From contig CAMUHY010000007.1 in NCBI GenBank assembly GCA_947088865.1, positions 1 through 64,000 on the forward strand: a DNA stretch of 64,000 nt. Reading direction: 5' to 3'. Below are positions 60,082-64,000 of the stretch, piece by piece. The translations under genes and the position numbers were made by a program. A model generated the notes under the pieces. It worked only from the letters and a program-made list of their open reading frames with translations. It did no database searches and was not told the DNA's origin. The number at the start of each line of letters is the position of its first letter. The stretch's first letter is position 1. The stretch is from an uncultured Eubacterium sp. GTDB taxonomy: Bacteria > Bacillota > Clostridia > Lachnospirales > Lachnospiraceae.

Positions 60082-60110
60082 TTGACTTACCTATTTTTAT
60101 ATTGTATTAT
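60082..60110 (+). promoter_or_regulatory. Promoter of the cobalamin-controlled gene
   Basis: TTGACT (60082-60087), 17 bases, TATTAT (60105-60110) on the plus strand, immediately upstream of the riboswitch. Confidence 0.75.
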
Positions 60111-60112
60111 GC

Positions 60113-60330
60113 TTACGGTTTTGTACAGGGAATACGGTTCAAATCCGTAACAGCTCACTCTACTGTAAGTGGACACGTCTCTCCATATGCCACTGTGATA
60201 TTCGTCTCTCATTCGGATATAGCGGGAAGGCGGTTTGACGGCAAACATTATACCATAATTATGTGCTTCTTTCTGCACATAATAGCTCGGCTTCGCCGAG
60301 ATTATTATGCCACAAGTCAGGATATCTGTG
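60113..60330 (+). promoter_or_regulatory. Cobalamin (B12) riboswitch
   Basis: The conserved aptamer core is clear: CAGGGAATACGGTTCAAATC (consensus GGGAA..GGTG.AA.TCC), then ACAGCTCACTCTACTGTAAG (CRCTACTGT), GCCACTG (60189) and GGGAAGGCGG (60225), and the B12 box AGTCAGGATATCTGTG (60315-60330). The peripheral hairpin AGCTCGG/CCGAG at 60284-60301 fits the variable arm. It lies 50 bases before the AAGGAGG of the next gene and probably controls translation, as no terminator is seen. Ligand binding should turn the gene off when cobalamin is plentiful. Confidence 0.92.
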
Positions 60331-60382
60331 CAAAATACAACTATAAAAACGCCGTCTGGTGAGAGATGTGCAAGGAGGATAT

Positions 60383-61702
60383 ATGAGAGATTTTTTATCA
60401 AATGGTGCAAAGAAACATTCTTTTCGCCATCACGCAAGCTGTATCATACTTACAGTATGTATCATGCTTTCATCAACATTTTTAGCATTGGCTGCACCAA
60501 ATACTACTGCACCAACATTAGAAACAGTGCAAACAGAAAGTCAAAAAAGTGCCGCCTATCTTATGAAACAAGCGGATTATTCTAACATATCCAATGTTTC
60601 AACGTTTAAAGAACAATCAAGAAATCTTATATTAAGCATTCGTTCAGGATATAATTGTTCTGATAATATCAACGCTTATCTTGAAGCCGTCAAACAGATT
60701 ATGAATACCGACGGAACACTACACATGGAAAAAAATGAATACACACCGGATTCAAAGGATTACTATTCATCTTATGCGTACCTTTTATTAGTGCTTGCCC
60801 TTGCAGATGAAGATGCATCCAATTTTAACAATAATAATATGATTGCACTTTTTAATGATATTCTAAACGCAGCGCCAGAAAACGATTTTATTTACAGTGA
60901 CACAAATCCAGATGCACTTAATCTATATCATCTAGGTATTGTCAATCTTGCAGTAGAAAGTTATTCCAATGAAATGAAAGACTATATCCGTATTTCCGAA
61001 AAAATTAAAAAAGCTTTAAAATCTATTTCTACTGAAAAAGGTATTAACTATTGGGGTTATAGTCTTGACAACAACACACATGTTTACAGTTATTTTTATA
61101 ACATGTACACATCGGATTCGGAAATCAAAAATTTGATAGATACAGTGTTGACTTACACAACAAATACCTATTATGATTCCGTAAATGGTACATTTAATTA
61201 CCCTGATTACAACGACCCTGCTAAATTTAATCCAAACGAAAATTCTACGGCACTTGCAGTGGCACTTTACTCAACCTATAACAATCATGAGCTTTCAACC
61301 GTTGCTTTTAACACATTGACTACTCTGTACCAATCTTCAACAACGCCTGGCGTCTACACATTTTTTGGAGAAGACAGCATTTTTACAACCTATGATGCCC
61401 TGTATGGTCTTGTTACATATCAAATGGCACTTGCAGGAAAATCCAATCCTTTTGATGTCAGCGATATTACAAAAGCAGTAAAACCACCTGTGACAGAAGA
61501 ACCTGAAAAGCCAACAGAGGATTCCACAACAGTTTTAAATCCATCAGAATCCACAGAGCAGTCTGTCAATAATCCAGAGGCAGACAGTTCAACATCGCCT
61601 GCTACGGGGGATAGTTCATTGCTTATACTGTTTATTATTTTAAGTTTGTCTTCTTTAACCTTATTAGTAACAACAAACAATATATGCAAACCAAAAAAAT
61701 AA
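60383..61702 (+). CDS. Cobalamin-riboswitch-controlled, sortase-anchored alpha/alpha-toroid-like surface protein
   Basis: A 439-residue surface protein. A signal peptide (about 1-39, ending LALAA) is followed by a helical domain (about 55-365) with repeated helix pairs (YSSYAYLLLVLALADEDAS, NLYHLGIVNLAVESYSNEM, NSTALAVALYSTYNNH, TYDALYGLVTYQMALAGK), typical of alpha/alpha toroids such as prenyltransferase repeats and transcobalamin/intrinsic factor. A Pro/Thr-rich spacer precedes SPATGD (about 405), a hydrophobic stretch and a basic tail, a sortase sorting signal of the variant used in Lachnospiraceae. AAGGAGGATAT precedes the ATG. Control by B12 suggests capture of cobalamin at the cell surface; this is inferred, not shown. 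Confidence 0.85.
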   Translation: MRDFLSNGAKKHSFRHHASCIILTVCIMLSSTFLALAAPNTTAPTLETVQTESQKSAAYLMKQADYSNISNVSTFKEQSRNLILSIRSGYNCSDNINAYLEAVKQIMNTDGTLHMEKNEYTPDSKDYYSSYAYLLLVLALADEDASNFNNNNMIALFNDILNAAPENDFIYSDTNPDALNLYHLGIVNLAVESYSNEMKDYIRISEKIKKALKSISTEKGINYWGYSLDNNTHVYSYFYNMYTSDSEIKNLIDTVLTYTTNTYYDSVNGTFNYPDYNDPAKFNPNENSTALAVALYSTYNNHELSTVAFNTLTTLYQSSTTPGVYTFFGEDSIFTTYDALYGLVTYQMALAGKSNPFDVSDITKAVKPPVTEEPEKPTEDSTTVLNPSESTEQSVNNPEADSSTSPATGDSSLLILFIILSLSSLTLLVTTNNICKPKK

Positions 61703-61858: not shown

Positions 61859-63229
61859 CTACGTAACCATATCTTCATGCAGCCATTTGCCGCTAATAAA
61901 ACGCACTGAAAAAATACACGCTCTGACAATCCAGTCGGTAAAAATTCCAATCCATACTGCACCCAATCCAAAATGAAATGTATTCACAAGAAAAACGCTA
62001 AGCGCCACACGGCAGCACCACATACTAATTACAGAAACAATCATTGAAAACTTCACGTCACCTGCTGCCCGAAACCCATAAGGCAAGCCAAAAGCACCTA
62101 CCCAAAGCAGAGGTTTTACAATTGTCATTGCAGTAACTAGCCAAAAACACATCCTAGCGGCTTCAGGCTCCATTCTGCCAAGCCACGTCACTGGCTTTGT
62201 AATGGCAAGAACCAAAAGACACGAGACAATTACTCCTATCCATGCAATTCTCATAAGTTTTACAATATAATACTTTGCTTCCTCTTTTCTATGTGCGCCG
62301 ATACACTGTCCCACAACTGTCATAAGCCCAATGCCTACACCATTGCTAAAAATGCCATTTACATTTTCAAGAATATCCGTCATTGCCTGTGCGGATATTG
62401 CTATTGTTCCCATTGTTGAAACAGTCGAGGAAATAGCAATTTTTCCAAACTGAAACATACCATTCTCAATACCTGCTGGAATACCTATTGCCATTATTTT
62501 TAATATCAGTTTCATATCAGGACGAATTTTTAAATAATCCCTTACCACTATCATTTGTTTGGGATTTCTTAAACAATAATATATTACCACTGTGCCAAAA
62601 ATTCTTGATAAAAGTGTGGCAAGGGCAGCGCCAGCAACTCCCCAGCCAAAACCATAAAGAAACAATACATTCCCCGTAACATTTATAACATTTGAAATAA
62701 TAGATATCTTCATTGGAAACTTTGAATTGCCAAATGCCCTATAAAATGATGCTCCTGCGCTAAATAATGCCAAAAATGGATATGAGACAGCCGTTATCAT
62801 AAAATAGATAAATGCGCTTTTCATTACAGAATCTTCTACTGTTCCAAATATCAACCGTAAAAGCCGCTCTCCTCCCAAAATACAAAACATGGTAATTAAA
62901 AGTGAAATTCCAAGTACTGTAAGCACAACTTGTCCTGCTGTTTTACTGCTTTCTTCTCTATTCCCACTGCCAATATACTGTGAACAAATAATTACTGCAC
63001 CTGCTGCCATTGCCGCAAATATCTGTATAACTAAATTATTTATTGAGTCCACAAGAGATACTGCTGATATGGCATAGCTTCCAACAGTAGAAACCATCAT
63101 TGTGTCTACCATTCCCATAAGTGAATTTAAAAATTGTTCTACAATTATAGGCAAAAGCAGCCAAAATAATGTTTTATTATCAAATAAAACATTTTTCCAG
63201 TCTATCTGCTTTTTGTCATACAGTTTCAT
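61859..63229 (-). CDS. MATE family multidrug/metabolite exporter
   Basis: A 456-residue membrane protein with about twelve helices in two halves. PIIVEQFLNSLMGMVDTMMV (first MATE signature), AGAVIICSQYIGSGNREESS, and IPAGIENGMFQFGKIAISS are typical. It exports cationic drugs or metabolites by Na+ or H+ antiport; the substrate is unknown. AGGAG precedes the ATG. It lies between the B12-controlled gene and an ECF S component but on the latter's strand. Confidence 0.93.
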   Translation of the reverse strand: MKLYDKKQIDWKNVLFDNKTLFWLLLPIIVEQFLNSLMGMVDTMMVSTVGSYAISAVSLVDSINNLVIQIFAAMAAGAVIICSQYIGSGNREESSKTAGQVVLTVLGISLLITMFCILGGERLLRLIFGTVEDSVMKSAFIYFMITAVSYPFLALFSAGASFYRAFGNSKFPMKISIISNVINVTGNVLFLYGFGWGVAGAALATLLSRIFGTVVIYYCLRNPKQMIVVRDYLKIRPDMKLILKIMAIGIPAGIENGMFQFGKIAISSTVSTMGTIAISAQAMTDILENVNGIFSNGVGIGLMTVVGQCIGAHRKEEAKYYIVKLMRIAWIGVIVSCLLVLAITKPVTWLGRMEPEAARMCFWLVTAMTIVKPLLWVGAFGLPYGFRAAGDVKFSMIVSVISMWCCRVALSVFLVNTFHFGLGAVWIGIFTDWIVRACIFSVRFISGKWLHEDMVT

Positions 63230-63337: not shown

Positions 63338-64000
63338 TTAATATTTTCTTTTTACAATGCCATACTTTATCCTTACCCGCTCTATCTTTCTCACAATACT
63401 TTCCCCTGCAAAAAATACACAAACGGCAGCTCCTAACGCATGTCCTATATCATAAGGCAACCCTGTAATATATAACATTTTTAATGCGCTGACACCACCA
63501 CTATATGCCGACTGTGTCATTGTAAATGCGGCAAAATTCATAATACCACCATATAAAATAAATACACTTAAAAAAGTAAAAACGCTCATGGTTATAAAAT
63601 TTGCTGGCAATTTATTTTTTCTAAAAAGAAAGGATACCAACATGCCAATCAAGCCAAATACATATATTCGCCACCCCCAAAAAGATTCATTTGTCTTAGC
63701 TCCTAACAAATATACTATGTATCCAACTATTTCAAAAACAAGGATACAAATTAATGGAGTTATACAAATTTGCACACCTATTTTTTTTGCTTCTTTTTTA
63801 TATTCACTTTTACTATCCAAAATACCAATCATTTCAACTTTTGAAAATAATATGCCTGCCAATGCACCAAGCAGTCCCCATGCTAGCATTTCCCAAACTG
63901 TCCATGCTCCTTGCGTCATAAAAAAATTACAGATAAATCTTGAAAGCGCACCCGTTGCAAAACCTGCCCTTGCACCCAATGCTATACCTGTCAAAATCAC
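63338..64000 (-). CDS. ECF transporter S component, partial at window edge
   Basis: The last 220 residues of an integral membrane substrate-binding subunit; the N-terminus lies outside. About five membrane segments, an ARAGFATGALSRFICNFFMT helix and the QGAWTVWEMLAWGLLGALAG block match ECF S components, a group often linked to cobalamin (CbrT-type) in which the motif is QGPWTPWQM. The Met at the window edge is internal. It captures a vitamin and works with EcfA/A'/T encoded elsewhere. Cobalamin is plausible because of the nearby B12 riboswitch, but that gene is on the opposite strand. Confidence 0.75.
   Translation of the reverse strand: MILTGIALGARAGFATGALSRFICNFFMTQGAWTVWEMLAWGLLGALAGILFSKVEMIGILDSKSEYKKEAKKIGVQICITPLICILVFEIVGYIVYLLGAKTNESFWGWRIYVFGLIGMLVSFLFRKNKLPANFITMSVFTFLSVFILYGGIMNFAAFTMTQSAYSGGVSALKMLYITGLPYDIGHALGAAVCVFFAGESIVRKIERVRIKYGIVKRKY

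Follow-up and report, generated by a model that had tools for sequence, protein, structure and literature searches.

What does the only cobalamin riboswitch found in the genome of an uncultured Eubacterium sp. (assembly GCA_947088865.1) control, and could its target catch vitamin B12 at the cell surface? The riboswitch lies on contig C7 (CAMUHY010000007.1), whose bases 1-64000 are the stretch analysed (hereafter the window; later C7 numbering continues that of the window). It precedes a gene for a secreted toroid protein of 439 amino acids (aa) with an ATG start (60383..61702, + strand). We consider it likely that a transcobalamin-like carrier of cobalamin (B12) or a related corrinoid is split between two proteins in this bacterium and that the toroid protein is its alpha half. 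The observations behind this reading are the riboswitch, the anatomy of the gene, the fold of the toroid model, the fold of a relative's DUF4430 protein, the similarity of a neighbouring transporter component to CbrT, and the conserved linkage of these genes. The initial annotation had proposed a surface protein for B12 capture, and that proposal, with binding still putative, gains support from a nearby DUF4430 gene, a CbrT-like S component, two five-part operons in relatives and riboswitches in all ten close homologous loci.

By cmscan, RF00174 matches 60087-60347 on the + strand with 57.8 bits (E 1e-11; gathering score 31.5), the sole match in the whole genome (3.29 Mb, 99.98% complete), and the core boxes are legible in the alignment. 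The P1 of the model is poorly paired at these positions; an alternative P1 of 9 bp, with 0 mismatches and two G-U pairs (letters checked), bounds the aptamer at 60118..60336 (+; 60118-60126 with 60328-60336). The aptamer initially placed at 60113-60330 is thus real, and its bounds were correct to a few bases. A promoter-like site (TTGACT-17 nt-TATTAT, 60082..60110, +) has 10 of 12 consensus matches and stands just before P1, from which transcription would start at the aptamer. The near-consensus promoter noted earlier is therefore present as a site, but such sites are no rarer in shuffled sequence (nine of the same quality in the 2-kb region, 9.6 expected), and its placement is the only argument that makes it credible.

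Control is probably exerted at the level of translation, because no terminator was found between the aptamer and the start codon (one + strand site sits inside the aptamer) and loop L5 is complementary to a GGTGAG motif next to the ribosome-binding site. This motif forms the loop of an L13-like hairpin (60351..60371, +) directly 5' of the ribosome-binding site AAGGAGGA (60372..60379, +, letters checked); the hairpin is likely the translational expression platform. L5, as placed from the sequence (60205..60212, +), is complementary to 60359-60366 over 8 nt with one G-U. Of ten riboswitch loci compared, GGTGAG occurs 3' of the aptamer in seven, and the loop pattern for L5/L13 was recognised in two. 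The hairpin's folding energy does not beat that of shuffled sequences, although that of the entire leader does (z -3.1, with 0 of 100 shuffles as stable). An L5/L13 kissing loop was considered and not adopted: its 8-nt complement is present, but the best duplex of L5 is with the start-codon region (60383-60390), a duplex that 18 of 500 shuffles also reach. In the leader of Parasporobacterium paucivorans (G050) a terminator-like hairpin can be read by eye instead.

The gene was first described as encoding a signal peptide, repeated helices, a spacer and a SPATGD sorting signal, and its anatomy, an AlphaFold model and the sortases of the genome bear this out. The signal peptide spans about residues 1-37 (60383..60493, +), and the sorting signal, in which SPATGD is followed by a hydrophobic stretch and then a basic tail, lies at 61595..61699 (+), both by eye and from the alignment. 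SPATGD occupies residues 405-410, and between it and the 330-residue helical domain runs a spacer rich in Thr, Ser, Pro and Glu (both by eye). Together with three sortases encoded in the genome, these features are those of a sortase-anchored surface protein, SPATGD being the LPxTG-like motif. The anchor profile EF0750_LPXTG of NCBIfam gives 11.1 bits against a cut-off of 47, and no match to Pfam Gram_pos_anchor was reported. Structure prediction of the helical region (residues 38-367, 60494..61483, +) gave an alpha/alpha toroid with AlphaFold (AF2; predicted local distance difference test, pLDDT, 85.4; predicted template modelling score, pTM, 0.89), which was compared with known structures by Foldseek and VIA-align.

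No Pfam family is found in the 439 aa at E <= 10, and no beta-grasp (SLBB) domain, DUF4430 being a separate gene; searches of Pfam, NCBIfam and PDB sequences returned nothing informative. None of the ten close-group members matches a B12 carrier at E <= 1, nor does the toroid profile show B12-carrier similarity in PDB sequences. Influenza haemagglutinin rows returned by the toroid sequence search (E >= 0.5) were taken as chance.

The second half of the argument lies mostly beyond the window. An energy-coupling factor (ECF) S component gene lies partly inside it (63338..64000, - strand) and extends to 64174. The full gene matches ECF-ribofla_trS (PF07155) with 35.8 bits (cut-off 26.7), and its best PDB match is 6fnp_A (E 4.5e-4 with a single sequence, 2e-13 with a profile). 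Compared with solved structures only, the next S component by profile follows at E 0.0088, and no NCBIfam S-component family reaches its cut-off. On these sequence comparisons, the S component is nearest to CbrT among the solved S components found. Upstream of it, outside the window and likewise on the - strand, are genes for an EcfA-EcfA' fusion of 579 aa (C7:64150-65889), an EcfT that matches CbiQ (PF02361; C7:65897-66799) and a DUF4430 protein (PF14478, 68.1 bits against 23.8; C7:66923-67783), so that the S, T and two A units of an ECF transporter are encoded together. Modelling the DUF4430 protein of a relative gave the fold of the transcobalamin beta domain, and this match suggests that DUF4430 is the SLBB domain of transcobalamin-type proteins. 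The suggestion that the ECF S component is the membrane partner of the toroid protein is strengthened by its CbrT likeness, by the nearby DUF4430 gene and by the five-part operons of relatives. The initial annotation missed the beta-domain partner beyond the edge of the window.

The physiology of the genome is consistent with B12 uptake. It encodes one clear B12-binding protein, which is MetH-like (PF02310, 100.2 bits; TIGR02082, E 7e-151, below cut-off with the model end uncovered), and a second PF02310 match is below cut-off. CobS and CbiD have no match in the genome, other corrinoid synthesis genes not having been searched. The genome therefore looks, from its gene content, like that of a B12 user dependent on uptake. 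A BtuFCD importer is not favoured by the sequence matches: the one Peripla_BP_2 protein has IsdE as its best NCBIfam match with BtuF lower, all below cut-off. The locus might instead import cobinamide, another B12 precursor or cobalt, with the riboswitch signalling only the downstream product. The CbiQ match of EcfT and the fact that CbrT carries cobinamide too, as stated in part of PMC5997447, speak for this; however, a genome without CobS and CbiD matches could hardly use precursors or cobalt to make corrinoids, and the S component is closer to CbrT than to any other solved S component found. We regard this explanation as improbable.

Conservation of the locus provides further evidence. A search with a toroid profile over 397 genomes of the family, the Lachnospiraceae (E <= 0.001), matched 53, own genome included; the close group consists of the nine genomes at E <= 4.1e-47 (own included) and, as the tenth, L013 (some contigs carry two labels: L014 = G109, L015 = G014, L016 = G050). 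A single-sequence contig search for the toroid found 0 relatives, and a four-row profile found four loci. The close homologues indeed stand behind cobalamin riboswitches: all ten close-group members have one before the toroid gene or a DUF4430-toroid pair, nine over the gathering score and one below. Eight are well over it, G336 is just over (32.0 against 31.5, a partial model match), and G257 falls below (28.3 bits, E 3e-5), its riboswitch emerging only when 701 bases were searched permissively. All nine genomes at E <= 4.1e-47 have a DUF4430 match no more than 10 kb from the toroid, and in L013 alignment reveals a DUF4430-like gene beside the toroid.

The arrangement of the genes varies (ECF genes of relatives were recognised from translations, S genes also by alignment). 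In G050 and G218 a single operon comprises riboswitch, toroid, DUF4430, EcfT, EcfAA' and EcfS. In our genome, G300, G336 and G257 the toroid gene and a DUF4430-EcfT-EcfAA'-EcfS operon point towards each other, separated by one further gene in ours and in G257. Toroid and DUF4430 stand together in G014, G339, G109 and L013, where reading 17, 18, 12 and 9 kb, respectively, revealed no ECF genes; the G109 contig ends shortly after the toroid. G008, of the same genus, has neither a toroid nor a DUF4430 match. The anchor signal is absent in two of the ten members (L015, L050), so anchoring varies.

In one alternative, the toroid protein would serve the B12 uptake locus without contacting the corrinoid, as a scaffold in the wall or a docking site for the DUF4430 protein, which alone would bind B12 and feed the ECF transporter. 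Human transcobalamin beta domain has been solved alone with cyanocobalamin, to judge by the entry title, so the beta half may suffice, and no B12 carrier is matched by the toroid sequence. Yet the only riboswitch found in the genome precedes the toroid and not the DUF4430 gene, and nine of the ten invariant positions in the ten-row protein alignment fall inside the toroid domain. We consider a scaffold role unlikely, though less so than precursor import.

Several neighbouring features were also observed. In our genome the gene between the toroid and the ECF operon encodes a MATE-family exporter (61859-63229, -); it looks like an insertion, because toroid and EcfS are directly adjacent in G336 (L052) and G300 (L051). 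Past the window's edge, what reads by eye as a type I restriction-modification set occupies L009:9811-17410 (C7 about 67811-75410); its hsdR-like gene ends 27 bases before the DUF4430 gene, and a drum RNA (RF02958, L009:13565-13693) lies within the region. G300 and G336 have a tRNA gene before the DUF4430 gene instead of this set.

Two results qualify the reading of the toroid as half of a B12 carrier. The first concerns the fold, which was initially likened to that of transcobalamin. That fold is shared, also with many unrelated enzymes, and is no pointer to transcobalamin by itself: the best structural matches of the model are enzymes, including GH88/GH105 enzymes and sugar epimerases. The protein could accordingly be read as an enzyme, either a glycan lyase or hydrolase or one that modifies cobamides, freeing or altering corrinoids at the surface. 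No Pfam or NCBIfam enzyme family matches it, however, identities in VIA-align are just 6-14% (rows shown), and non-enzymes (transcobalamin, complement C4, alpha2-macroglobulin) have the same fold; of the explanations weighed here, an enzyme seems to us the least probable. The second result comes from the distant loci examined, where a cobalamin riboswitch lies within 1.5 kb of one of 21 loci in the family search and three of 18 in a class search (4/38 in total, one locus, L027 = L060, being in both sets); a riboswitch further up an operon would escape this distance. Homologues thus have the riboswitch in the close group and mostly have none nearby outside it.

The linkage of toroid and DUF4430 reaches further. 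A DUF4430 match lies within 10 kb of at least 47 of the 66 distant toroid rows listed, in at least 35 of 45 genomes, and of at least 30 of the 42 rows with E <= 1.7e-7. Chance proximity would be about 1.5% per row, a rough estimate that assumes two DUF4430 copies in 2.6 Mb; DUF4430 is common by itself (200 of the 397 genomes). Since so few distant loci have a riboswitch nearby, the riboswitch link is a property of the close group, and the toroid-DUF4430 link is wider.

Distant toroid proteins are often longer, and some have S-layer-like repeats or a DUF4430-like end in the same chain (by eye). For example, a toroid-like part and a DUF4430-like end share one 539-aa chain with a hydrophobic segment in G519 (L069:1000-2616, by eye); judged by these segments, the chain is a fused counterpart of the split pair. 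G359 (L056:6395-12083) presents a variant with a riboswitch of 37.5 bits and a 682-aa toroid protein with a PETGD sorting signal, followed by DUF4430, EcfT and EcfA genes (by eye); this toroid has weak matches, below cut-off, to squalene-hopene cyclase and prenyltransferase profiles. In G575, a 98.9-bit cobalamin riboswitch (L077:2607-2799, +), one of the four counted above, adjoins the gene of a toroid protein with SLH-like repeats and reads away from it.

Taking the toroid as the alpha half of a split carrier, we infer the following mechanism. When B12 is short, the riboswitch would permit translation of the toroid mRNA, and the protein would be secreted and linked to the cell wall by sortase. 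The DUF4430 protein, whose gene is about 5 kb distant, would be the beta half, tethered to the membrane through a long linker and its N-terminal segment. Toroid and DUF4430 protein would enclose one corrinoid between them, in the manner of the two intrinsic factor domains, and pass it on to the CbrT-like S component in the ECF transporter whose genes accompany that of the beta half. Once internal B12 is plentiful, the riboswitch would shut off the toroid, probably at translation. For cleaved intrinsic factor it is known that two separate halves can hold B12: its fragments IF30 and IF20 retain tight binding and are recognised by cubilin (PMC6257451). The fuller picture, a two-piece transcobalamin between wall and membrane with a wall-linked, B12-switched alpha half, a membrane-linked beta half and a dedicated CbrT-type ECF transporter, we favour only slightly over its being wrong in some part.

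If the reading is true, it would show how gut-type bacteria catch scarce B12. For many bacteria of the human gut, identification of the systems that transport B12 is described as an open problem (PMC6593275), and variants of known B12 machinery are assumed for Gram-positive gut species (PMC6977713). The locus offers a complete, testable candidate comprising capture halves, importer and switch, and a naturally split carrier would be a handle on the cooperation between two halves. In that case the fused as well as the split proteins of Clostridia would be extant relatives of the ancestor from which animals acquired intrinsic factor and transcobalamin.

The closest precedent is Burroughs et al. 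2007 (PMC1796856), the relevant passages of which describe bacterial transcobalamin-type SLBB proteins with common toroid fusions and CbiO/CbiQ neighbours, report a Gram-positive anchor in several, predict B12 scavenging and propose that animal carriers were obtained from low-GC Gram-positives. The present proteins resemble these in being surface or secreted, in their toroid and beta-grasp domains and in their CbiO/CbiQ-like neighbours. Those passages describe fused toroid-SLBB proteins and name neither a split pair nor an S component, and the word riboswitch is absent from the main text. The earlier statement that no wall-anchored B12 binder is known in Firmicutes needs the correction that B12-scavenging surface proteins, several of them with a Gram-positive anchor, were predicted in 2007. 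Searches of the open-licence PubMed Central literature turned up no experimental test of that prediction and no paper on a Firmicute B12 binder with a toroid that is split off or anchored to the wall, and the portions of PMC3766115, PMC2667541, PMC11477304 and PMC7478625 consulted name none. As far as these searches go, four elements are new: a split pair in which each half has its own anchor, a genome whose sole cobalamin riboswitch precedes a toroid, the conservation of this riboswitch link across ten genomes, and the S component of CbrT type.

Compared with animal transcobalamin, intrinsic factor and haptocorrin, the two halves here come from different genes and have different anchors, sequence similarity of the toroid is undetectable, and the putative binder sits on a bacterial surface rather than being a secreted animal carrier. 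ECF-CbrT of Lactobacillus delbrueckii (PMC5997447, PDB 6FNP) has a similar S component and an EcfA-A'-T set, whereas this locus, with putative B12 transport, has a dedicated ECF module beside the S gene, fused EcfA/EcfA' and candidate extracellular capture proteins. BtuG and BtuH of Bacteroides (PMC6143338, PMC8941943) are surface proteins that catch B12 for a transporter, as is proposed here; unlike the proteins of this locus, they belong to a Gram-negative surface, and BtuG is a beta-propeller working with BtuB (part of PMC6977713).
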